Shown here in pieces: positions 4,032 through 50,327 of a stretch of DNA of 64,000 bases (its first letter is position 1; each line of letters starts with the position of its first letter). This DNA comes from Halomonas sp. TD01. GTDB taxonomy: Bacteria; Pseudomonadota; Gammaproteobacteria; Pseudomonadales; Halomonadaceae. A program made the position numbers and the translations under genes. The notes beneath the pieces were generated by a model. That model ran no database searches. It was not told the origin of the DNA and saw nothing but the letters and a program-made list of their open reading frames with translations. The stretch is taken from NCBI RefSeq assembly GCF_923868895.1, contig NZ_OV350343.1, positions 2,976,001 through 3,040,000 on the forward strand. Reading direction: 5' to 3'.

Positions 4032-4870
4032 TGCGTTATAGCGTAGATGATCTGCTGACGTTGATGTCGGTACTTCGCAATGCGGAACAGGGCTGCCCTT
4101 GGGATATTAAGCAAGATTGGGACAGCATCGTGCCCCATACGCTGGAAGAGGCTTACGAAGTTGCTGACGCTATTGAGCGACGCGCTTTTGATGAATTGCC
4201 GAGCGAGCTGGGTGACCTGCTGTTCCAAGTGGTGTACTACGCCCAGTTTGGTGCCGAGGAGCAGCGCTTCGACTTTCACGATATCGTCGACACATTGACT
4301 GCGAAAATGTTGCGACGTCATCCGCATGTATTTCCTGATGGCACGCTAGTGTCACGGCGCCCACCTGGAGTAAGTGCGGAGGACGTACAAACCCAGCAAG
4401 TCAATTCGCGCTGGGAAGCGCTCAAAGCCGATGAGCGTGCCGAGCGTGCACAGCAAAACACGCCCTCTGTACTTGACGATGTTCCACGTACGCTGCCTGC
4501 GCTTAGTCGTGCCGCTAAACTCTCTAAGCGCGCCGCCAGGGTCGGGTTCGACTGGCCAGATGCTCGCGGCGTGTTGGACAAAATCCGTGAAGAGCTGGCT
4601 GAAGTTGAAGAAGCCCTAGCCGAGGGCAACCAGCAGCACGCTCAAGAAGAAGTCGGCGACCTGTTGTTTGCAGTGACTAATTTAGCTCGCACCTTGGGTG
4701 CTGACCCCGAACAATGCTTGCGTACCACAAATACCAAATTTGAGCGCCGCTTTCGCTATGTAGAACGCGAGCTTGCCGCCGATGCGCGTCCGCTAACCGA
4801 CGCCTCGCTTGACGAGATGGAAGCCCACTGGCAAGCCGCTAAAGCACAAGAAAAGATGCTTACCCCTTAA
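4031..4870 (+). CDS. mazG: Nucleoside triphosphate pyrophosphohydrolase MazG
   Basis: Hydrolyses (d)NTPs to NMP and pyrophosphate, cleaning the nucleotide pool and, in E. coli, lowering ppGpp. The 279-residue protein has the expected two tandem MazG folds. The first has LEEAYEVADAIE and ELGDLLFQVVYYA (about 35-75), and the second EELAEVEEALAEG and EEVGDLLFAVTNLAR (about 180-225), with the acidic metal-binding residues kept in both. A strong Shine-Dalgarno (AAAGGAGG) lies inside the end of relA, and the start codon overlaps the relA stop. The relA-mazG pairing places the enzyme functionally next to stringent control. Confidence 0.95.
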   Translation: MRYSVDDLLTLMSVLRNAEQGCPWDIKQDWDSIVPHTLEEAYEVADAIERRAFDELPSELGDLLFQVVYYAQFGAEEQRFDFHDIVDTLTAKMLRRHPHVFPDGTLVSRRPPGVSAEDVQTQQVNSRWEALKADERAERAQQNTPSVLDDVPRTLPALSRAAKLSKRAARVGFDWPDARGVLDKIREELAEVEEALAEGNQQHAQEEVGDLLFAVTNLARTLGADPEQCLRTTNTKFERRFRYVERELAADARPLTDASLDEMEAHWQAAKAQEKMLTP

Positions 4871-4917
4871 TGACTGATTTTTAACAACTAATGCGACCCC
4901 GCAAGGAGGCCATGCCA

Positions 4918-7566
4918 ATGAGTCACGACCTACACGAATCGCTACGTGATAACGTGCGTATTCTCGGTGATAGCCTGGGCCGTACGATTGCTGATGATTT
5001 AGGCCAGTCATTTGTTGATAAAATTGAAACGATTCGTGCCCATGCCAAGCGGGGACGCCAGGGCGATTCATTGCAGCAGCGAGAGCTCATTGAGTATCTA
5101 CGCCAGTTGCCCGAACGCGACCTACTGCCAGTTACTCGCGCATTTAACCAGTTTTTAAACCTTGCCAATATTGCTGAACAGCACTATCGGGCGCGCTTTC
5201 GCCGGGTGGAAGACTACAAGCCAGGCTCCCAACCAGTGCTTGGTGAACTGCTAAGCCGTGCACAGCAGGCAGGTAATTCACCCCGTAAATTAGTAGAAAC
5301 CCTAGCTAGTATGCGCGTTGAGCTAGTGCTGACTGCCCACCCTACAGAAGTTATCCGCCGCACGTTGATTCAAAAATACGATGCTATCGACGAATGCCTG
5401 ACCGCGATTGAAAGCTCTGAAGACTATCCAGAGCGTGGCACTCGCGCCCAGGGGCGCTTGGAAGAGTTGATCAGTCAGGCGTGGCATACCGATGAGATTC
5501 GTCATGAACGGCCAACCCCCGTTGATGAAGCCAAATGGGGCTTCGCGGTTATCGAAAACTCCTTATGGCAGGCAGTGCCAGACTTCCATCGCGATTTGGA
5601 TAATTTATTACTCGATACTGCCGGAGAGCGTTTGCCGCTAGATGCCGCGCCTATTCGCTACGCTTCCTGGATGGGCGGTGACCGAGATGGCAATCCAAAT
5701 GTCACCGCTCGGGTGACGCGAGAGGTGCTCTTATTGGGCCGATGGATGGCCGCCGATCTCTATTTACGCGACCTTGAACAGCTGAAAACCGAGCTTTCAA
5801 TGTGGAAAGCTAACAGCGCTTTGAAGGCAGAGGTAGGAGAAGTTGCCGAGCCTTACCGTGAGCTGCTCAAGCGTCTGCTGAATAAAATGGAAGCCACACG
5901 CGACTGGGCAAAAGCAGAGCTGGATGGCCGTAACTATGACGGCGGACCAATTATTGAAACCCGCGACCAACTCTACGCGCCGCTACTGGCATGCTACCGC
6001 TCACTGTGTGATGTCGGGCTGGATACCATCGCCAACGGTGCGCTGCTTGACACCTTGCGTCGCGTAGCGGTGTTCGGTGTCACGCTGACCAAGCTTGACC
6101 TGCGCCAGGAGGCCAGTCGCCATGCCCAGGTAATGGAAGAACTCACCAGTGCACTGGGCTTGGGGCACTATCAGGACTGGAACGAAGCTCAGCGCCAAGA
6201 GTTCCTGCTCGCTGAGCTAGAATCAAGGCGGCCGCTAATCCCACGCCGTTGGGAGTGTTCGGCAGAATCCCGCGAAGTGCTCGATACCTTCAAAGTGATT
6301 GCTCAAGAGCATGCTGAAGCGTTGGGTACTTATATTATCTCCATGGCTGCCGAGCCTTCGGACGTATTAACCGTTGCGCTGTTGATGAAAGAAGTTGGGG
6401 GCCAAGTCACGCTGCCCATCGCACCGCTGTTTGAAACCCTGAACGACCTTGACCATGCGGGCGATGTTATCGATCAATTGCTGGCGCTACCGGGTTACCG
6501 CGCTCTGGCGAAAGACCGTCAAGAAGTCATGATTGGCTATTCAGACTCGGCTAAAGACGCCGGGCAGCTTGCTGCTGCCTGGGCACAGTACCGTGCCCAA
6601 GAGTCGTTAGTCGATGTATGTGACAAACATGGCGTAGATTTAACGCTTTTCCATGGCCGAGGTGGCACGGTTGGTCGTGGTGGCGGCCCTGCGCATGCGG
6701 CGATTCTTTCCCAGCCGCCGGGTTCGGTGAATGGCAGCCTACGAGTGACAGAGCAAGGCGAGATGATTCGCTTTAAGTTTGGTCAGCCAGATATCGCACT
6801 GCGCTCTATGGAAATTTACGCTTGTGCGGTCATGGAAGCGACGCTATTGCCACCGCCCGCACCTGAGCCTCAGTGGCGTGAAGAGATGGACCAGCTAGCG
6901 AAAGTAGCCCATGCAGCCTATGTTGGCGTAGTGCGGGAAGACCCCGATTTTGTCCCGTATTTCCGTGCTGTCACGCCGGAAGGCGCATTGGGTAGGCTGC
7001 CGCTCGGCTCTCGGCCAACCAAGCGTCGCCAGGATGGTGGCGTGGAAACCTTACGAGCGATTCCGTGGATTTTTGCCTGGACGCAGATTCGCTTGATGCT
7101 ACCTGCTTGGTTGGGCAGTGGTGAGGCGTTCTCGCGACGCCTAGAGCAGCCAGGTGGCCGGGAAGTGCTGCAAGAAATGCGCAGTCAGTGGCCTTTCTTT
7201 GGCACCTATCTCGATATGTTAGAGATGCTGTTGGCCAAAGCGGACGTAGCGATTGCAGCTTACTATGAGCACCGCCTAGTCGATGAGCCTTCACTGAAAG
7301 CGCTGGGTCAGAAGCTACGTGAGCGTTTTGAACGGCTTGAAAACGTCGTGTTGGATATCCTTCAGCAAGAGAAGCTGCTTGAAAACACACCGCTGATTCG
7401 CCAAGCGATTGATGTGCGTAACCCCTACATCGACCCGCTTCATGGCTTGCAAGCGGAACTTCTACAGCGTAATCGGGATGCCGATGGCGCCATTAGCGCA
7501 GATCTCTCCCGTGCGCTTATGGTGACCATGGCCGGTATTGCAGCAGGTTTACGCAATACGGGCTAA
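4918..7566 (+). CDS. ppc: Phosphoenolpyruvate carboxylase
   Basis: Anaplerotic enzyme that carboxylates phosphoenolpyruvate to oxaloacetate. The start is placed at 4918 (MSHDLHESLRDN) because AAGGAGG at 4903-4909 sits 8 bases ahead; upstream in-frame ATGs at 4891 and 4912 lack usable spacing. This gives 882 residues, the normal family length. Motifs are LTAHPTEVIRRT (catalytic histidine, about 139), FHGRGGTVGRGGGP (active-site glycine loop, about 580), SQPPGSVNGSLRVTEQGE, and the invariant C-terminus ending in NTG. It stands alone after mazG. No truncation is visible. Confidence 0.96.
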   Translation: MSHDLHESLRDNVRILGDSLGRTIADDLGQSFVDKIETIRAHAKRGRQGDSLQQRELIEYLRQLPERDLLPVTRAFNQFLNLANIAEQHYRARFRRVEDYKPGSQPVLGELLSRAQQAGNSPRKLVETLASMRVELVLTAHPTEVIRRTLIQKYDAIDECLTAIESSEDYPERGTRAQGRLEELISQAWHTDEIRHERPTPVDEAKWGFAVIENSLWQAVPDFHRDLDNLLLDTAGERLPLDAAPIRYASWMGGDRDGNPNVTARVTREVLLLGRWMAADLYLRDLEQLKTELSMWKANSALKAEVGEVAEPYRELLKRLLNKMEATRDWAKAELDGRNYDGGPIIETRDQLYAPLLACYRSLCDVGLDTIANGALLDTLRRVAVFGVTLTKLDLRQEASRHAQVMEELTSALGLGHYQDWNEAQRQEFLLAELESRRPLIPRRWECSAESREVLDTFKVIAQEHAEALGTYIISMAAEPSDVLTVALLMKEVGGQVTLPIAPLFETLNDLDHAGDVIDQLLALPGYRALAKDRQEVMIGYSDSAKDAGQLAAAWAQYRAQESLVDVCDKHGVDLTLFHGRGGTVGRGGGPAHAAILSQPPGSVNGSLRVTEQGEMIRFKFGQPDIALRSMEIYACAVMEATLLPPPAPEPQWREEMDQLAKVAHAAYVGVVREDPDFVPYFRAVTPEGALGRLPLGSRPTKRRQDGGVETLRAIPWIFAWTQIRLMLPAWLGSGEAFSRRLEQPGGREVLQEMRSQWPFFGTYLDMLEMLLAKADVAIAAYYEHRLVDEPSLKALGQKLRERFERLENVVLDILQQEKLLENTPLIRQAIDVRNPYIDPLHGLQAELLQRNRDADGAISADLSRALMVTMAGIAAGLRNTG

Positions 7567-7630
7567 GAAAAGCGTGCGCCGTCACTACGTGTGACGGCGT
7601 CGTCATCACCTTACTAGGAATGGGGGCGCG

Positions 7631-8176
7631 ATGATAAAGGATGCTCAGTCAGTACTATCGTTTTGGTTTAATGAATTGACACCAGCGCAGTGGTTTAAAA
7701 AAGACACGTCGATGGATCAGCAGATTACTCAGCGGTTTGGCCCTCTGCTGAGCAAAGCAGCTGCCTGTGAATGTTATGAGTGGCGCAGTACTGCTCGAGG
7801 GCGGCTGGCTGAAATTATTGTGCTGGATCAGTTTTCTCGAAATATCTACCGTGACCACCCGCAAGCCTTCGCCAGTGATGCGTTAGCCTTAGCGCTTGCA
7901 CAGGAAGCTGTTGCATTAGCGGTCGATAACGAACTGGCTCCCGTCGAGCGTAGTTTTTTATACATGCCTTATATGCACAGTGAGTCTGCCGCTATTCATA
8001 AGGTGGCAATGCAGCTGTTTGATCAGCCTGGGTTAGAGAACAACTTGGATTTCGAGATTCGTCACAAAGCGATCATTGACCGCTTTGGTCGTTATCCCCA
8101 CCGAAACGAAGTGTTGGGCCGAGTATCTACGCCAGCAGAGAGCGAGTTTCTTAAACAGCCTGGGTCCGGCTTCTAG
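7631..8176 (+). CDS. DUF924 family protein
   Basis: The 181-residue soluble protein matches the DUF924 family: it opens with [15 protein letters not shown], carries [14 protein letters not shown] in the middle (about 65), then PYMHSE (about 115) and a C-terminal region ending with FGRYPHRN (about 155). This family is a helical, TPR-like fold of unknown biochemical role. No catalytic motif can be assigned. A GGGGG-containing purine-rich stretch precedes the ATG. The gene lies between ppc and rluF on the same strand but is separated from each by more than 60 bases, so an operon is uncertain. Confidence 0.85.
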
Positions 8177-8244
8177 TTGGATCTTTAACGTTAGCTTTTG
8201 AATTTTGCTTAATTACTTCACCACACTTTTGCCTATGGCGTTTT

Positions 8245-9285
8245 ATGTCGTTACGAAAATCTACCCGCATCAATAAATACATCAGCGAAAGCGGTTTGTG
8301 TTCTCGCCGAGAGGCTGACCGCTATGTTGAACAAGGCAACGTTTGGATTAATGGGCGTCGGGCAACGACAGGCGACCAAGTGGTGCCGGGTGATCGGGTT
8401 AAGGTCAACGGTCAGGACATTGAGCCTCAGGAAGAAGAGGATTTAGTACTTATTGCGCTAAATAAGCCGGTGGGGATTGTCAGTACTACCGAGTCCAGCG
8501 AAAAAGACAATATTGTTGAATTCGTGAAACACGGCACGCGCATCTTTCCTATCGGGCGGCTGGATAAAGACTCACAAGGACTTATCTTTCTGACCAATAA
8601 CGGCGACTTGGTTAATAAAATCCTGCGCGCCAATAATAATCACGAAAAAGAGTATGTGGTAACGGTCAATAAGCCGATTACCGATGAGTTTGTTGCAGGC
8701 ATGCAAAAGGGTGTGCCGATCCTGGGGCAGGTGACTAAAAAGTGTAAAGTGACCAAAGCGTCGACGTTTGTGTTCACTATTACGCTGGTGCAAGGGCTGA
8801 ACCGCCAGATTCGCCGTATGTGCGAGTACTTTGGCTACGAGGTCACTCAGCTTGTTCGCACACGAATAATGAATGTTTCCCTGCAAGGGTTGGCCCTGGG
8901 TGACTGGCGGGATTTAACCCCTAAAGAGATAGATACCATTGTCGCGCTGACGGAACGCTCAGAGGCAGTGCCTGACAAGAGCCAGTCCGCACGGCCTGAT
9001 TACAGTTCGGGGGCAGGCGCTAACAAACCTAAAAAAACAGCTGCGAAGGGGCGCCAGAAACCGGCTAAGCCGGGTGCTAAAGCGGTTGGGAGCAAACCGC
9101 CATCCAAGGGTAAAAAAGCCGCCAGCGGTAAAGTGCGTACTGGCCCAAAGGCCAGAGCGTCGGGTAAACCACACCCACACCCCAAGGCCAAAGCTGCTGG
9201 CGCGGGTAAGCCTAGCGCAAAAGGCAAAGCTGGGGCTAAGCCAGTTGGTAAAGGCCGTGTTGGTCGTGCGAAAGGGAAACGTTAG
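8245..9285 (+). CDS. rluF: 23S rRNA pseudouridine-2604 synthase RluF with long basic tail
   Basis: Isomerises a uridine (U2604 in E. coli) in 23S rRNA. The 346-residue protein has an N-terminal S4 RNA-binding domain ([20 protein letters not shown], about 8-27), then the RsuA-family catalytic domain with [15 protein letters not shown] (catalytic aspartate, about 113) and [18 protein letters not shown] (about 188). Sequence style matches RluF rather than RluB or RsuA. The last ~95 residues are a low-complexity Lys/Ala/Gly/Pro-rich tail resembling a histone H1-like tail, probably extra rRNA contact. E. coli RluF also has a basic tail but, from memory, a shorter one. The Shine-Dalgarno before the ATG is weak. 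Confidence 0.92.
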
Positions 9286-43482: not shown

Positions 43483-43531
43483 GCCGATGCAGTTGACCGA
43501 GTTAGTTTGGTCCACTGCATCGGCTTTTTTT
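43483..43531 (+). terminator. Rho-independent terminator after the amidase gene
   Basis: A 16-bp stem with a single mismatch (GCCGATGCAGTTGACC / GGTCCACTGCATCGGC), 10-base loop, then seven T residues. Confidence 0.95.
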
Positions 43532-43874
43532 ATATAAGTGATAGCAGCAGTGCAAGTGTGTTATCAGCCAATAGACTCTAGGCGTGGCAGAAAACCGTAA
43601 TGCGCGGCTAATGACTAATGACGAGGCTGCGGTTTATCTGCTAGCGTTAGGGCTAAGAAAATTTTGAGTGAAAGGCTGGGTCACGCCTCAAGGGGAGGGC
43701 GGCTTGTGTGAAGTGGTATATGCAATATCGGCTTTCGACCCAAAGCGGCCCTTTCAGAGAAAGCGGCATGCTGACTCAGCCGTGTTATGCAGCCGGCACG
43801 ATAATCTATGTCATGCTGCCTATTTATACTTAATTAATTTAAATTTCAATGGGATAGCTCGTGAATGAGGGGAT
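43532..43874. other. Gene-free stretch left of the cassette region
   Basis: No credible gene in these 343 bases; a 66-residue open frame at 43668-43868 has no ribosome binding site and no recognisable protein. A TGTTATGC near 43781 resembles the end of a degenerate attC site but has no matching partner. Confidence 0.5.
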
Positions 43875-43918
43875 GTATAACCTGAATGGACGCGCCGCAG
43901 GGTTCATTCAGGTTATGT
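43875..43918. repeat. attC-like palindrome 0 (left edge of cassette I)
   Basis: GTATAAC (43875-43881) and GTTATGT (43912-43918) bracket inverted arms CTGAATG / CATTCAG. The two outer cores are the same heptamers as in the site at 45778-45830. At 44 bp it is shorter than most attC sites and its arms pair without bulges, so it is the weakest of the four. Confidence 0.5.
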
Positions 43919-43960
43919 AGAGGGGAGTATCATCACTGTTATACCTATAAGGATTGAACC

Positions 43961-44620
43961 GTGAAATTACCAGTTACATGTGCACAATGCATGCAAGCGG
44001 ACATCGCAAACGCGATGATCATCGCAACGGTTGAATTCAAGGATGATGGTCGATATGAGATTATGTGTCCAAAGGGCCATTCTTCCATTACCCTATTGCA
44101 ACAACAAAAGTTTGAAATACTTTTTGATATTGGCGCTTACGCAATCGTAGATGGCTATTATCGAGAGGCAGTTTCGTCGTTTACTTCTGCATTAGAAAGA
44201 TTCTACGAATTCTTTATAAAAGTTGTATGTATATCAAAAAATATTGATTTTTCTAATACGCAAGAAGCATGGAAAGAGATCTCGAATCAATCTGAAAGGC
44301 AGCTAGGAGCTTTCATTTTTCTTCATCTTCAGGAAACTGGAAGTAAGCCAACTTTGCTCAGCAATAATAAAATAAAATTTCGTAATGAAGTTATCCATAA
44401 GGGCAAAATACCAAGTAAAGAACAGGCTGTTGAATATGGTCAGGCCGTTCTCGATGCGGTTCGCCCACTTCTTAAAAAGCTCAAAGAAGAGTATGGAGAT
44501 GCGGTCGGAACGGCTACATTCCAGCATCTAAGCAATACCAGAAGTCCATCTGATAATAGTATGGCTGTTTCAACGATGTGCATTTCAACAATTTTAAGTC
44601 TCCTTGGCCGCAGAAACTGA
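43961..44620 (+). CDS. Zinc-ribbon plus HEPN-type protein, cassette I, 3' end cut by IS30
   Basis: A 219-residue protein of no named family. The N-terminus has CAQC (residue 8) and CPKGH (about 38), which could hold a zinc ion. The middle is helical (AYAIVDGYYREAVSSFTSAL, about 67-86), and FRNEVIHKG (about 140) contains the R-x4-H motif of HEPN ribonucleases and toxins. Its stop codon (TGA, 44618-44620) lies inside the left inverted repeat of the IS30 element, so the natural C-terminus is probably missing; reading across the excised element could add about seven residues. The gene is AT-rich. Its start is 48 bases after an attC-like site, as expected for an integron cassette. The role is unknown; a toxin or defence RNase is inferred. 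Confidence 0.75.
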   Translation: MKLPVTCAQCMQADIANAMIIATVEFKDDGRYEIMCPKGHSSITLLQQQKFEILFDIGAYAIVDGYYREAVSSFTSALERFYEFFIKVVCISKNIDFSNTQEAWKEISNQSERQLGAFIFLHLQETGSKPTLLSNNKIKFRNEVIHKGKIPSKEQAVEYGQAVLDAVRPLLKKLKEEYGDAVGTATFQHLSNTRSPSDNSMAVSTMCISTILSLLGRRN

Positions 44621-45688
44621 GTGCAACACCTGAGCATTTCGCTAAGGTGTTGTCCCATGTCTTACCTCGAACTCAGTATTGAAGAACGTGCCAGCATCCA
44701 AGTGGGTCAAGCCCAAGGGATGAGCCTTCGGCATATTGCCCAGCTCCTGGGGCGAGCTCCTTCAACCATCTCTCGTGAAATACGCCGTAACCAAATGGCC
44801 CAGAACGGTTACTGCGCCCGGTACGCCCAACGTCAGCGAGAAAAGCGTCGAGAGGTCTGTCGTCCTGCGCGTAAGCTTTTGCCAGGCACCGAGCGGTTTG
44901 ATCTCATCGTGCATATGTTGCGGCGACGCTTGTCTCCCGAACAAATTAGCGGCAAGCTCAAGACGATGAAACTACCTGATTTGCGCGATGCCTACGTCTG
45001 CCGAGAGACCATCTACACGGCCATTTATGCCTTGCCTGTTGGCCACCTTCGCAAGGAACTGATTCACTGCTTGCGACAAGGTAAAACCACACGCAAGCCT
45101 CGCCGTGGCGAAGTGGATCGACGTGGCCAGATCCCTGACATGGTCAGCATTCACTTACGTCCGCCCGAGGTCAGTAAGCGTGAAATGCCCGGCCACTGGG
45201 AAGGCGATCTGATCAAAGGTAAGAATAACGCGTCCGCGGTAGGCACCTTGGTAGAGCTTAGTAGTGGCTATCTGATCCTCGCAAAAATGGACGACGCCAC
45301 CGCCACCTCCGCCGTAGCAGGCTTTAGTGCTGCTCTGAATCGAATGCCGACCACCGCTCGAAAAAGCATGACCTATGATCAGGGGCGTGAAATGGCACAA
45401 CATGCAAAAATCACTCAAGAAACCGGCGTTGCGATTTACTTTTGCGATCCCCATAGCCCCTGGCAACGTGGGGCCAATGAGAATATCAATGGCCTTATCC
45501 GTCAATATTTACCGAAAGGAACGGACCTTTCAGTACATAGCCAGGAAGAGCTGGACGCCATTGCCTTTGAGCTGAATATGCGACCTCGAAAACGCTTTGG
45601 ATTTAAATGTCCGATAGAAGTGATGAGCGAGCTGATGGCCAAGTACCATGAAAGCCCATCAACCATCCAATGAGTGTGTTGCACTCAG
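44617..45688 (+). mobile_element. IS30-family insertion sequence
   Basis: About 1,072 bp bounded by perfect 13-bp inverted repeats CTGAGTGCAACAC (44617-44629) and GTGTTGCACTCAG (45676-45688), with one transposase gene. No flanking target duplication is seen (left flank ends AGAAA, right begins AGTCT). It lies inside cassette I, between the HEPN-type gene and its attC site. Confidence 0.9.
44657..45673 (+). CDS. IS30-family transposase
   Basis: A DDE transposase of 338 residues from the ATG at 44657 (MSYLELSIEERASIQ); an in-frame GTG at 44621 lies within the terminal repeat. It has an N-terminal helix-turn-helix (MSLRHIAQLLGRAPSTISRE, about 21-40), then the catalytic core with GHWEGDLIKG (first D), MTYDQGREM (second D, about 238) and SPWQRGANENINGLIRQYLP (the E, about 275), as expected for IS30. 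It is full length and probably functional. Confidence 0.94.
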   Translation: MSYLELSIEERASIQVGQAQGMSLRHIAQLLGRAPSTISREIRRNQMAQNGYCARYAQRQREKRREVCRPARKLLPGTERFDLIVHMLRRRLSPEQISGKLKTMKLPDLRDAYVCRETIYTAIYALPVGHLRKELIHCLRQGKTTRKPRRGEVDRRGQIPDMVSIHLRPPEVSKREMPGHWEGDLIKGKNNASAVGTLVELSSGYLILAKMDDATATSAVAGFSAALNRMPTTARKSMTYDQGREMAQHAKITQETGVAIYFCDPHSPWQRGANENINGLIRQYLPKGTDLSVHSQEELDAIAFELNMRPRKRFGFKCPIEVMSELMAKYHESPSTIQ

Positions 45689-45777
45689 AGTCTGCATCCG
45701 CCCTCTCTAATGGTGAGCCAGCCCATGATGAGAGAAGCTTGAAAGATGCAATCTCACAGCTACGGCGTTGGTAAAAG

Positions 45778-45830
45778 GTATAACAAGGCGCTATTGCCGG
45801 ACAAACTTGCCGCAAAGCGCGGCGTTATGT
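45778..45830. repeat. attC-like recombination site 1 (end of cassette I)
   Basis: Outer cores GTATAAC (45778-45784) and GTTATGT (45824-45830). The inner arms GCGCTATTGCCGG and CCGCAAAGCGC pair into a stem with two unpaired bases (A and C) on one strand only, the asymmetry expected of a folded attC. The length, 53 bp, is typical. The next gene starts 18 bases further on. Confidence 0.75.
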
Positions 45831-45847
45831 GATTAGCGGAGAAATCA

Positions 45848-46579
45848 ATGAGTGATAGTTTATTCTTTAGAGAAAAATGCCCGAAATGCAGAGCAAAAAA
45901 TGTTAGATTTGAGGTGATGTCGGAAAGCATAAGTGATGACTCTATCTATGCTGAGGCTTATGTATATGACGACTGGAGGGAGTATGATTACTTTCTTTTT
46001 TCACTCTCATCAAAATGCAACGAATGCAATCGAATTGTATCGGCAGATGTTGCAGTAATACACAACTTCGAAAAAAACTCAAAATGTGAATCACTAAAAG
46101 AGTTTTCTAGCATCGATGGTGAGTTAATAAGCAATGAAAAATTGCTTATTCATTTCAATTACCCTCCAGTTATACCAATGCAGCCAATAAGTAGTCCAAC
46201 GATCGTTGATATACTTCATTTATTCGAACAGATGGTACAATGCTACAATATTAAGTCATGGGATGCTGTAGGTATGTTATGCCGAAAAATTATTGACATA
46301 GAATCACAAAAAATGTGGCATAAAAAGTTTCCAGGTATTCGTTGTCCAAATCTCTACAATAGGGTCGAGAAATTGCTAGTTCCTGATAAAGATGTTGAAA
46401 AAAGCGATGGCTGTCTAAACATAGATAATAAAAACCATAAAATTTTAAATCGAATTGAGCAAATAAGACTGCTAGGTAATGAAGCAGCACATAGTGAGTT
46501 GCTTTTCGATGAGACAGACGCAGAAACGGGGTATATTTTCACAATGTTTTTTATGGACGAAATTATTGGTTGGGAGTGA
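45848..46579 (+). CDS. Zinc-ribbon plus DUF4145 (HEPN-superfamily) protein, cassette II
   Basis: A 243-residue protein. The N-terminal third has CPKC (about 10) and CNEC (about 58), which can form a zinc ribbon. The C-terminal half matches DUF4145, a HEPN-superfamily domain: WDAVGMLCRKIIDIESQKM (about 139-157) and the conserved RLLGNEAAHSEL (about 209-220). DUF4145 proteins occur alone or fused to restriction and toxin modules; the function here is inferred as defence-related. The ATG is 18 bases after attC site 1, with GCGGAGAAATCA ahead, and the stop is followed within 6 bases by attC site 2, the standard layout of a single-gene integron cassette. The gene is AT-rich. Confidence 0.83.
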   Translation: MSDSLFFREKCPKCRAKNVRFEVMSESISDDSIYAEAYVYDDWREYDYFLFSLSSKCNECNRIVSADVAVIHNFEKNSKCESLKEFSSIDGELISNEKLLIHFNYPPVIPMQPISSPTIVDILHLFEQMVQCYNIKSWDAVGMLCRKIIDIESQKMWHKKFPGIRCPNLYNRVEKLLVPDKDVEKSDGCLNIDNKNHKILNRIEQIRLLGNEAAHSELLFDETDAETGYIFTMFFMDEIIGWE

Positions 46580-46584
46580 AAATC

Positions 46585-46709
46585 ACATAACAAACTATTC
46601 AAAAGGTATTCGCAACGAGTGGCATTTTTACTATGCATTGGTTTAAGTGATTACGGTGGTATGCTGCAGCTTCGATATAGCGTTTCTCACCTCTTAACAG
46701 GGCTTTATG
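46585..46709. repeat. attC-like site 2, long VCR-type (end of cassette II)
   Basis: It starts ACATAACAAAC and ends GGCTTTATG, with internal motifs such as AACGAGTGGCATTTTT and GGTGGT at positions recalling the ~125-bp VCR sites of the Vibrio cholerae superintegron (comparison from memory). The right core is TTTATGC where GTTATGC is expected, a single change at the cleavage-site G, so the site may be inactive. Confidence 0.65.
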
Positions 46710-46731
46710 CATCAGCAAGGAGTTGATATCC

Positions 46732-48366
46732 GTGGGAGATAAAAAACCATACTTACATTTTAACGCATTTTTGGCCAAAGATGAGCATGCTTCTCTGCAA
46801 ACTGCGGACTACCTAAAAGTTCCATCTCAAGTTAATGCTCATGAGCTTGATAGTAAACATGACCTTGAAGGAAAATTGTTCTTAAAAATTAATAAAGAGA
46901 AAAAACCCAAATGGAGTGGTTTTGCGGAGAATGTTACAGGCGTTTCATTAGATGAACTCTCTAATCGTTCCAGTTCAGCAGTTCTTATTATCAAAACAGC
47001 CACAGCTACAATGGCTTTTACCTTTGGCTATGGTCGATTCCTGATAGATACGAAATATTTTGTGCATGATTTTGGAATTAAAACTGCGCTTAATACACTT
47101 AACCATGACAGTTTGCGGAGCGTTGACCTTTTCACGCTAGAAGATCAGGCAGTCCAGAAAAAGTCGCAAGCTTCTAGAGAGTCCTCTGTCGGTGTGTTTG
47201 GTATTGATATCTCGAGAGATGTTCTTAGAGCTGTCACTGGGTCACCTAAAGATGGTGTGAGCTTGAAAAACATTTCTGGCGGGGATGCTGTTTATTCATT
47301 TGGCGTAGAAATGGATGTGGATGAAATATCCCAATTGGTTGATTTGCTCTTTGCTTACTATGCAAATGATTCATACAAAAGAAACTTTTCCTGGGTCGAT
47401 AATATTAGGAAGGTCAAAGCAAAGTCCGAAATTGATCGTTTGGATTCTAAGTTGATCGATAAAATAAAAACAAAGAGCACCAAAATAACCATAACTATTC
47501 CTGAGATTGTTCAATGGGATAGCATCTATGGGTTCAGCTACACTCGAACTAAAAACTCTATAAAACCAACCATCGAGCCTAAGGAATACATTGATAACAT
47601 AGATTTCGCTAAGGTGTCGATTGACTCAATCAAGCGAGACAGGCTATTTGTTTACGACGTTAATGAAAATGAGTCCGAGCATCAAATATATAAGTGCATC
47701 TATTTTGAACATAAAGAAATAGATAAAACTTACATACTATTCGCAGGGTTATGGTACGAAATCGACAATAGCTTTATGGCTAGAGTTGACGCTACGTTGG
47801 GGAGGATAAATGTATCATCTCTTGCTTTTCCAAAAGTTTATATTTGGGATGAAATAGAAGACGGAAAGACAAAATCAAAGATTGAATCAGAAGGTGATTA
47901 CAATAAACGAGCTTCGACAAACTATAGCTATCATCTGCTCGATAAGGAGTTGATAAAAAGCAATAGAACCACTACGTCTATAGAGCTATGTGACTTGATG
48001 ACAGATAACAAGCAGTTTGTTCATGTTAAACATAGAAAAGGCGGATCAGCTGGTTTAAGTCACCTTTTTGCACAAGGTAGTGTCTCTGCTGAGATTTTGC
48101 TTGGTGACAGAGAATTTAGGAAAAAAACGAGAACTGTTTTAAGACGAGTAAGTAGTGGTTTACAGGATAGTGTTCCACTTGATAAATTTAAAAGCGATGG
48201 CGTTGAAATTGTTTTTTTGATCTTAGGTGAGGATTCAGCAAGCTTAAAGAGCAATTTACCGTTTTTTAGTAAAGTTAACCTATCAAAGGCATTCGAAAAC
48301 TTATCGCAAAGAGGTTTTGAAGTAAGTGTTGCTGGTGTAGGAACAGAGTCCAAACCTAATGCATAA
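46732..48366 (+). CDS. DUF6119 / TIGR04141-type sporadically distributed protein, cassette III
   Basis: A 544-residue protein. The GTG at 46732 is chosen because AAGGAG lies 9 bases ahead; a TTG at 46723 is too close. Recognisable family features are TMAFTFGYGRFLI (about 92-104), KKSQASRESSVGVFGIDISR (about 142-161), ELCDLMTDNKQFVHVKHRKG and AGLSHLFAQGSVSAEIL in the last third. This family is known for its patchy distribution in bacterial islands, and its activity is not established. The gene is strongly AT-rich. It follows attC site 2 by 22 bases, and a HEPN-like gene follows it before the next attC, so the cassette seems to hold two genes. Confidence 0.8.
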   Translation: MGDKKPYLHFNAFLAKDEHASLQTADYLKVPSQVNAHELDSKHDLEGKLFLKINKEKKPKWSGFAENVTGVSLDELSNRSSSAVLIIKTATATMAFTFGYGRFLIDTKYFVHDFGIKTALNTLNHDSLRSVDLFTLEDQAVQKKSQASRESSVGVFGIDISRDVLRAVTGSPKDGVSLKNISGGDAVYSFGVEMDVDEISQLVDLLFAYYANDSYKRNFSWVDNIRKVKAKSEIDRLDSKLIDKIKTKSTKITITIPEIVQWDSIYGFSYTRTKNSIKPTIEPKEYIDNIDFAKVSIDSIKRDRLFVYDVNENESEHQIYKCIYFEHKEIDKTYILFAGLWYEIDNSFMARVDATLGRINVSSLAFPKVYIWDEIEDGKTKSKIESEGDYNKRASTNYSYHLLDKELIKSNRTTTSIELCDLMTDNKQFVHVKHRKGGSAGLSHLFAQGSVSAEILLGDREFRKKTRTVLRRVSSGLQDSVPLDKFKSDGVEIVFLILGEDSASLKSNLPFFSKVNLSKAFENLSQRGFEVSVAGVGTESKPNA

Positions 48367-48459
48367 AGAGGCGCTGAACTTGGATAAATTATTCGCTTTG
48401 TTCCTAATTTACCGGTGAGCGCAGCTTTAGCTTCACTTCACAGGAGAACGGAAAGCTCC

Positions 48460-49098
48460 ATGAATGACATTCAGAAATACTTAACACCAAACAGAGAGGA
48501 TTTTGATAAAGATCCTTTTGGTTACAGTGCATTGGCTCGACATAAATGGGGGATGGCTAGCACCATCGCAGGCTTTCCAATCGATATTACAAAACCAGCA
48601 ACAGATGAAGAGCTCAAAAACCCTATACTCTGGATGTCGCAGGCTCATGCGCTTTCAGAAGCTGCAGCGGCTGTCCTAAGTAAAGATCAAAAATTCGAAG
48701 TTATGCCTCCACCAGTGCGTAGCGCATGTGACAGTCAGTACTGCGCAGTTGGGCTAATGCTTGTCGGTTACAGCTTAGAGATATGTCTGAAGTCTATGAT
48801 AATTATTAGAGAAGGAGTTGATGGTTATCGAAAAATTGAGAAGAAAACAAAACATCATCGGTTACACGATTTAGCAAACTTTATACCTGATCTAAGTAAA
48901 AAAGAAATCGCAATACTTAGGGGGCTAACTCATTTTGTTTATTGGGCAGGTAGATATCCAGATCCAGGATCCGGAAAAGAAGGTGAAGCAGAAGAAATTT
49001 TCAATATATCAGAAAAATATAAAGTTTCAGCCCATGACCTGTTTAAATTAACAACAAAGGTTATGGGTCATGCGCAGACTGTGGCGGCAGAGTTATGA
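48460..49098 (+). CDS. HEPN-like helical protein, cassette III
   Basis: A 212-residue protein from the ATG at 48460 (MNDIQKYLTPNREDF); an in-frame upstream start at 48415 lacks a binding site. The central part looks like a HEPN-type four-helix bundle: MLVGYSLEICLKSMIIIREG (about 99-118), then HHRLHDLANFIP (about 131) and LRGLTHFVYWAGRYPDP (about 153-169). The catalytic R-x4-6-H motif is not obvious, so it may be a non-catalytic partner. It lies 93 bases after the DUF6119 gene and 11 bases before attC site 3. A pair with its neighbour is plausible; function unknown. Confidence 0.68.
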   Translation: MNDIQKYLTPNREDFDKDPFGYSALARHKWGMASTIAGFPIDITKPATDEELKNPILWMSQAHALSEAAAAVLSKDQKFEVMPPPVRSACDSQYCAVGLMLVGYSLEICLKSMIIIREGVDGYRKIEKKTKHHRLHDLANFIPDLSKKEIAILRGLTHFVYWAGRYPDPGSGKEGEAEEIFNISEKYKVSAHDLFKLTTKVMGHAQTVAAEL

Positions 49099-49108
49099 TA
49101 AAAGTCAA

Positions 49109-49165
49109 AGCTAACAAGAAAAAGCAGCCGGACTGCTCCGCCGCGCGCTGTTTTCGGCGTTAAAC
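49109..49165. repeat. attC-like recombination site 3 (right edge of cassette III)
   Basis: A 57-bp palindrome from AGCTAAC (49109-49115) to GTTAAAC (49159-49165); the right core matches GTTRRRY exactly. Inner arms AAAA-AG-CAGC and GCTGTTTT pair with two extra bases on one side. It starts 11 bases after the stop of the last cassette gene. From 49166 to the end of the AraC gene at 49374 nothing else is recognised. Confidence 0.72.
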
Positions 49166-49373
49166 CGCTACATCAGTGTCGCCTAAAAGACCGCTTCTGG
49201 CCGTATAACGACGGTTTGTCCTAGACCGTTGTTTGACTGCATCACACTTCTTTGAATAGGCCATAGGATAGCTCCAAAAACGCGACGAGACTCGGAGGTA
49301 GCTCCAATCAGTCCACCCAAAAATCTATGAACGCGGTTCAGGGTAGAGCGGGGCAATGCTGGCCCGACAAAAC

Positions 49374-50327
49374 TCAGGCGTTGCCGCCGAAGGTCTTACG
49401 CCAGTCGCGTGGGCTGACTTGATGATGCTGCCTAAAGTGTTGACGGAAAGATGTCGCTGTATGAAAGCCAACTCGTTCCGCAATCGCTTCCACCGACAAG
49501 GAAGTAGTTTCCAGTAGCTCACGCCCACGCCGTAACCGCTCGTTGACAAGCCACTCCACCACCGTCATTCCGGTCGCTTTTTGAAAGTGGCGCGTGAAGG
49601 TGCGTCTGCTCATGGAGGTTCGAGCGGCTAGCTCATCGATGCGATGCGAACCGACTAGGTTTTCTCTCAAATAGTCCAATAAGCGATTGATATGGGCGTC
49701 TTGAGTGGAGATGGCAACGGGTTGCTCAATGAATTGCGCCTGCCCACCTTCGCGGTGCGGGGGAACCACCATAATACGGGCAATCTTGTTGGCAATCTTC
49801 GCGCCGTAATATTTGCGCACCAAGAACAAGCAGCAATCCAGGCCTGCCGCCGTGCCTGCGGACGTCACTAGACGATCCTCCTCTACATAAAGCGCATTGG
49901 TGTCCAGCTTGACCTTTGGGAAGCGGCCACTAAAGTCCTGCTCGGCGACCCAGTGAGTTGACGCCCGCCTGCCGTCGAGCAGTCCAGCGTACGCCAGTGC
50001 ATAAGTGCCGTAACAAAGCCCCACCACATGAGCGCCCCGTTCATGGCAGCGGACGAGCGCCTCGGCCAGCTCAGGCGGTGGTGGTTCATCTAGGTCATGC
50101 CAGCCAGGTACCACGGCTATATCCACGTTATCCAAGAGCGTTAAGCCGCCATTGGGCCTTATTGTCATCACCTCCTCACTCTCTAGCGAATCTTCCCAAG
50201 GTGCGACGATGGTCAGATCGAAGAGTGGGTGATCGGGGAGAGCCATGCCGAACACCGTATAGGGCACCGAGAAATGAAAAGGAGTGATACGGGGATGGAG
50301 AATTAAACCTACACGGGGTAAGGACAT
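49374..50327 (-). CDS. GlxA-type AraC-family transcriptional regulator
   Basis: A 317-residue protein: an N-terminal DJ-1/PfpI-like domain (about 1-180, with GAHVVGLCYGTYALAYAGLL carrying a cysteine at the nucleophile-elbow position) and a C-terminal AraC DNA-binding domain with two helix-turn-helices (RIDELAARTSMSRRTFTRHF, about 222-241, and VEAIAERVGFHTATSFRQHF, about 272-291). This architecture is that of GlxA/FtrA regulators, often controlling catabolism of quaternary amines or stress genes. AGGAG lies 6 bases ahead of the ATG. The target cannot be read from sequence; it is divergent from the metallo-hydrolase gene at 50474. Confidence 0.92.
   Translation of the reverse strand: MSLPRVGLILHPRITPFHFSVPYTVFGMALPDHPLFDLTIVAPWEDSLESEEVMTIRPNGGLTLLDNVDIAVVPGWHDLDEPPPPELAEALVRCHERGAHVVGLCYGTYALAYAGLLDGRRASTHWVAEQDFSGRFPKVKLDTNALYVEEDRLVTSAGTAAGLDCCLFLVRKYYGAKIANKIARIMVVPPHREGGQAQFIEQPVAISTQDAHINRLLDYLRENLVGSHRIDELAARTSMSRRTFTRHFQKATGMTVVEWLVNERLRRGRELLETTSLSVEAIAERVGFHTATSFRQHFRQHHQVSPRDWRKTFGGNA

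Follow-up and report, generated by a model that had tools for sequence, protein, structure and literature searches.

The window analysed here comprises 64,000 nucleotides of Halomonas sp. TD01, whose 4.14-Mb genome is a single contig (window, G000:C1:2976001-3040000), and between a choloylglycine hydrolase gene and an AraC-type gene it holds a block of gene cassettes and attC sites with no integron integrase gene (intI) beside it. Read from left to right, the block consists of a left end of about 200 bp (an inverted repeat, a palindrome, a promoter-like box and an attI core), four cassettes and a right end of about 44 bp (Table 1). That it is an integron gene-cassette array is near certain, and we consider it probable (about 0.72) that it is a single copy of an integron unit that occurs dispersed, lacks its own integrase, is loaded in trans and is itself mobile.

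Table 1. Features of the integron unit, in window coordinates
Feature	Position	Strand	Basis
Whole integrase-less integron unit	43736..49203	+	Limits from copies in other genomes; exact limits of the moved unit in L087/L089
Left terminal repeat CGACCCAAAGCGGCC	43736..43750	+	Majority-base fraction 0.90 over 15 nt
attI-region palindrome (first palindrome of the initial annotation)	43875..43918	+	Likeness to intI-bearing integrons of the same genus; 93.5% of cells pair in 22 aligned copies
-10-like box TATCAT, candidate cassette promoter	43928..43933	+	TATAAT in most aligned copies
attI-type core GTTATAC, crossover 43938/43939	43938..43944	+	Copies agree until the crossover, then diverge
Cassette-1 gene start, cut by IS30	43961..44617	+	Weak HEPN match (Csx1/Csm6 part), E 1.9e-4
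IS30-family insertion inside cassette 1	44610..45695	+	Transposase reading frame 44621-45673; NCBIfam IS30, E 4.1e-97
attC1, core GTTATGT intact	45778..45830	+	Scorer 46.8; covariance E 1.8e-8
Cassette-2 gene, 243 aa	45848..46579	+	Weak, sub-threshold DUF4145 match
attC2, 126 nt, core damaged (TTTATGC)	46585..46710	+	Scorer 34.1; covariance E 5
Cassette-3 gene, DUF6119/TIGR04141, 547 aa	46723..48366	+	E 9.5e-141; cassette recurs elsewhere
attC3, both boxes decayed	48361..48432	+	Scorer 33.6; covariance E 6.4e-3; intact homologue in L187
Cassette-4 gene, HEPN-like, 212 aa	48460..49098	+	Pfam HEPN, E 4.7e-4, just under the cut-off
attC4, core GTTAAAC	49109..49165	+	Scorer 36.7; covariance E 7.7e-5
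Right end of unit	49160..49203	+	Conserved in copies; also before the AraC-type gene in G256

The attC sites were sought with two descriptions derived from relatives in the family. The first, a scorer of sequence and pairing, was trained on 26 sites from 16 arrays adjoining intI (the intI of one, in G216, carries a stop), none of them from the source genome, and in a leave-one-locus-out test it recovered all 26 with exact limits when searching within 200 bp of each site. Its four best + strand matches in the whole window are attC1 to attC4, all inside the block, and the best score listed elsewhere on either strand is 28.5; the maximum in 200 dinucleotide shuffles of 43600-49299 was 29.6, against 47.0, 36.1, 34.1 and 32.3 observed with equal settings. 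The second, a covariance model built from 22 of the training sites with the four longest left out, recognises three of the four at E<0.01. The window yielded no integron integrase, either at E<=1e-3 or in a search with three intI proteins. The block is thus an integrase-free cluster of attC sites (CALIN, in the working sense of at least two attC and no intI nearby), as the initial annotation had proposed. The four palindromes on which that proposal was built all lie where it placed them, the first two having the outer heptamers GTATAAC and GTTATGT in common and the last ending in the core GTTAAAC, but the first of them is not an attC. A further site, 48361-48432, was not among them; an intact attC (score 52.5) on the same cassette in G007 (L187) identifies it as a decayed attC. 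The bottom strand of attC1 folds with unpaired bases, and the cores of attC2 and attC3 are damaged, reading CTTTA in place of the usual CGTTA.

With the covariance model, the first palindrome reaches only 10.5 bits (E 2.3) as an attC, and we read it as the palindrome of an attI region by its likeness to integrons of the same genus that carry intI. In six of these (L045, L046, L048, L050, L052 and L053), a similar palindrome of 44 nt adjoins the attI core, about 150 bp away from intI, and is followed by TATAATCACTG|TTA (TAGAAT in L052), where the first cassette starts; the window palindrome is followed by TATCATCACTG|TTATAC, which puts the crossover at 43938/43939. Among the aligned copies, 10 palindrome cells are changed on both sides, compared with a shuffled mean of 4.2 and with none of 500 shuffles reaching 10; the pairs with changes on both sides number 3, which is not unusual (184 of 500 shuffles). 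The left end as a whole was delimited in an alignment of 49 rows (40 distinct places, a few of them doubtful), where the majority-base fraction declines from its value in the terminal repeat to 0.74 in the next 45 nt and, outside the end, to 0.50 in 20 nt and 0.37-0.39 beyond. Twenty aligned copies agree, apart from some variants, from CGACCCAAAGCGGCC (window 43736) as far as the crossover and differ outside these limits; the left limit is less sharp at some places than at others, because certain copies also have part of their left flanks in common. We abandoned the idea that the left end is an RNA regulator, since the copies part from one another at the attI crossover; a comparison with Rfam gave no match at the gathering threshold anywhere in the window and, in 43500-49400 at E<=1, a single implausible weak match. 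Judged by the components of a complete integron, the window unit lacks intI and, by homology, appears to carry an attI site.

The right end follows the last attC and reads CAGnnnnnnCTAAAAGRCCGCTYCTGGCCG, finishing in the window at 49203. In 20 cases, the majority-base fraction is 0.76 inside this end and 0.49, 0.38 and 0.40 outside it. Left and right ends are imperfect inverted repeats of each other, with 11-14 of 18 positions matching in 14 units (two of them the same unit; 13 of 18 in the window copy), compared with a mean of 4.4 and a maximum of 10 in 420 control comparisons. An unloaded unit, in which palindrome and core run directly into the right end, is present in G133. The pattern of such a unit has two matches in the 275 genomes; the other, in G204 (L142), is actually an attC followed by the right end, that is, a loaded end.

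Both ends recur in the family, Halomonadaceae. At E<=0.01, window positions 43780-43965 match 103 of the 275 family genomes, many of them over short parts only, and strong copies of the left end (E<=1e-20, with at most three candidates scored per genome) were found at 35 places in 24 of the 275, including the source genome, where the window copy is the only strong match; carriers include Vreelandella zhaodongensis, V. nigrificans, V. venusta, V. titanicae and Halomonas cupida. The right-end pattern (<=3 mismatches; not every match checked for an attC) occurs in 164 of the 275, with up to 15 matches in one genome, and its reversed control in none; in an order-wide sample of 361 genomes, it is present in 11 of 16 family members and in 0 of 345 others. 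Further right ends lie in the source genome at 3041469, 3048488 and 2447146, and another, with five mismatches, stands beside an attC at 2287366. No left-end match was found in plasmid and phage collections at E<=1e-3. At 20 loci with 24 left-end copies, 22 copies have a same-strand attC (score >=32) after them before the next copy; in the other two, as in one of the 22, the match stops before the crossover. The existence of an integrase-less unit in multiple copies, with defined ends and an attI-type site, is well supported, and the block is one copy of it, not the isolated remnant that had been supposed. These observations also bear on the idea that an integron integrase placed cassettes at a chance secondary (attG-type) site. 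Insertion at attG sites has been described, according to the available parts of PMC12901181 and PMC12444791, but here a conserved attI-related segment of about 200 bp, the left end found at 35 places, leads the arrays, and a conserved right end closes them; we regard a chance site as very improbable.

Could the block instead be a decaying chromosomal integron of the ordinary kind, its intI lost by deletion, which is the usual view of a CALIN? Broken intI copies do exist in the source genome and in others, damage is seen in two attC cores, and the attI-type core shows homology to the attI of integrons that carry intI. A search of the source genome beyond the window, suggested with the initial annotation, found two integron remnants: at 3634892-3635820 (L009) lies an intI interrupted by four internal stops, and at 205-208 kb (L011) an attI core and two attC accompany an intI fragment. 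Separate deletions, however, would not give one left end with unrelated flanks at many places, a point reinforced by the 49-row alignment; moreover, in 20 arrays linked to intI and read for 2-16 kb, neither unit end was seen, and a unit has moved with exact ends (see below). Decay of an ordinary integron is thus an unlikely explanation. The three intI proteins likewise found no integron integrase in the 35 unit loci; L101 has a partial integrase match only. An integrase-like match in L136 was set aside, as it reads from its open reading frames as an IS91-type integrase beside a transposase. Integron integrases are nevertheless widespread in the family, with 84 of the 275 genomes matching the integron-integrase model at E<=1e-40 (63 above the curated cut-off), and together with the distribution of the right end, this corrects the impression that cassette arrays are not a standard feature of Halomonas.

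In the reading that we favour, a dispersed unit without its own integrase, cassettes would be loaded and unloaded at the core by an integron integrase acting in trans, encoded elsewhere in the genome or on incoming DNA, and the putative built-in promoter would express the first of them. Comparison with relatives, again as first suggested, revealed different cassettes at the same chromosomal site. One relative, G256, has the same flanks: part of the flank on the choloylglycine hydrolase side, the attI portion of the left end, four or more attC and, about 30 kb from the core, the right end with the AraC-type gene, matching the window from 49161 on at 91%. Both flanking genes are also found in V. 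venusta (G270), where the attC sites are different ones. When alignments longer than 350 bp are considered, neither genome has cassette DNA in common with the window, and the two have a single stretch in common with each other, 967 bp long and starting at an attC crossover.

A second system would recognise the outer inverted ends and move the unit itself. Movement of a whole unit is observed in one clean pair of loci, L087 (G219) and L089 (G227), which carry the same 1,068-bp unit at 99.25% identity, starting with CGACCC and ending two bases past GGCCG, and have no similarity in the 1.4-2 kb of flank compared on each side. The initial annotation had named gain of the block as one unit, with ends away from its palindromes, as a result that would tell against a cassette cluster; at least one block has indeed moved in this way, but the cassettes inside the units differ at attI and attC crossovers. 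In L089, where the moved unit is at 4957, a further attI-like core (TATAATTACTG|TTATG) precedes it by about 30 bp, giving the appearance of insertion into an older integron. A candidate for the moving enzyme is a 213-aa tyrosine recombinase (PF00589, E 3.4e-18), whose gene lies between a right and a left unit end in L085 (twice), L094 and L102, at fixed distances of 39 nt from the right end and 69 nt from the left; its relatives occur on 400 of 72,556 plasmid records. Widespread recombinases of about 213 aa were seen near hairpin repeats with the arms CCGCTTCTGGCCG / CGACCCAAAGCGG in L085, L094, L102 and L012 and at three of five plasmid loci of other genera (L180-L184). At these three, hairpin-arm motifs (<=2 mismatches) lie within 150 bp of the recombinase 3' end, a count given without comparison to chance. 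We tentatively suggest, at somewhat less than even odds, a two-layer system in Halomonadaceae, in which integron integrases exchange cassettes in trans and the intI-less platform is a non-autonomous element, with a separate short tyrosine recombinase acting on its inverted ends to move it.

The same hairpins raise an alternative, namely that the units are real but were spread by homologous recombination, or by transfer of larger segments, between common hairpin repeats, and not by an enzyme acting at the ends. Hairpin-arm repeats also occur without units, tandem units stand 30-53 bp apart with related hairpin sequence as the spacer, and neither a target duplication nor an empty site was found with the flanks compared; the breaks between G219 and G227, however, are exact at both ends, with no similarity outside. 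We rate this alternative as a minority possibility that deserves serious consideration.

Several observations weigh against the dispersed, trans-loaded and mobile unit that we prefer. With regard to movement, only one clean moved pair was seen, no target-site duplication is evident in the unit flanks inspected, and when eight joined flanks were compared with 82 genomes, up to three candidates being scored in each genome, no listed match spanned any of them, so that no empty insertion site was found. With regard to the limits of the unit, in both G256 and G270 the left end departs from the usual sequence over its outermost 30 nt or so, the AraC-type gene of G270 is not preceded by a recognised right end, and a single unloaded unit was seen. 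The intI-linked arrays were read over a limited length, and their far ends may therefore have been missed. attC2 has no support from the covariance model, although it is backed by the scorer, by a similar-ended 126-nt attC in the relative L097 and by a cassette limit in L187. As for loading in trans, the right-end pattern occurs in 57 of the 82 genomes of the genus, and by hand count intI matches (E<=1e-40) were found in 16 of these 57 and in 8 of the 25 without right ends; since intI is no commoner with right ends, loading in trans gains no statistical support, and the presence of units is not coupled to that of integrases from one genome to the next.

Cassette 1 is interrupted by an IS30-family element that the initial annotation had not seen, the 20-nt ends of which are 90% complementary. 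Because both known intI genes of the source genome are broken, two of the four attC cores are damaged and this element lies in cassette 1, the window copy is probably frozen. The cassette-2 protein has an 82% relative in Vibrio nigripulchritudo, and its long attC2 presumably resembles Vibrio repeats; for these two reasons, cassette 2 (window 45825-46710) possibly originated in a Vibrio integron. Cassette 3 occurs alone in G007, where the homology covers window 46701-48433, a few bases from the cassette limits, and relatives of the cassette-4 protein are annotated as HEPN domain proteins. PADLOC gave no match for cassettes 2-4, and a role of the cassettes in defence is a guess.

Two observations were made in passing. 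In L050 (2948), L052 (1875), L089 (10326), L090 (6804) and L234 (genome position 2445551), attC cores GTTGAGC or GTTGAGG are followed by a related stretch, CTGTAKAAAAACYCCRCTG..., which is probably an insertion sequence targeting attC. About 2.4-6.4 kb past the window end, in L012, lie a full-length LacI repressor (4360-5451, - strand; PDB lac repressor, E 1.4e-229) and, adjoining it, a 928-aa open reading frame (5605-8391, + strand) with no NCBIfam match, which we take to be a T7-like phage RNA polymerase; this combination looks like that of an engineered laboratory Halomonas.

No description of such units was found in the literature searched, that is, in the titles and abstract openings of CC-licensed PubMed Central papers. 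Arrays without an integrase (2,961) are similar in number to complete integrons (2,760) and are mostly taken for degraded ones, and standard software makes no attI search outside class 1, according to the available part of PMC9024848; similar designs could therefore be hidden elsewhere. Much of the family carries repeated units with an attI-type site and ends, which offers defined sequences for tests of recombination in trans, promoter activity and movement. If the two-layer system holds, some CALINs would be self-standing platforms and not dead integrons.

Among known systems, the unit resembles a CALIN in having several attC and no intI nearby, and CALIN cassettes are, in principle, usable in trans, as the available parts of PMC12444791 and PMC9668308 indicate; CALINs are described as degraded integrons in the available part of PMC9024848, whereas the window unit is a recurring repeat with an attI-type site of its own and conserved outer ends. 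With sedentary chromosomal integrons it shares an attI-type core, a promoter-like box and a one-strand array of promoterless-looking cassettes, and it differs from them in lacking intI, in occurring in several copies per genome and in being found as a whole unit at unrelated places. MITE-flanked integrons, whose ends are miniature inverted-repeat transposable elements (MITEs), are integron mobilization units. Like MITEs, the unit has short, imperfect terminal inverted repeats, no transposase inside and dispersed copies with unrelated flanks; unlike them, it holds the attI-type site itself, and no target-site duplication was found. Finally, attG sites and delta-attI-type cassettes are similar in that integron recombination takes place away from the normal attI (as far as the available parts of PMC12901181 and PMC12444791 go), but these are chance targets or a truncated attI behind a gene, whereas the window unit is led by a whole attI region.

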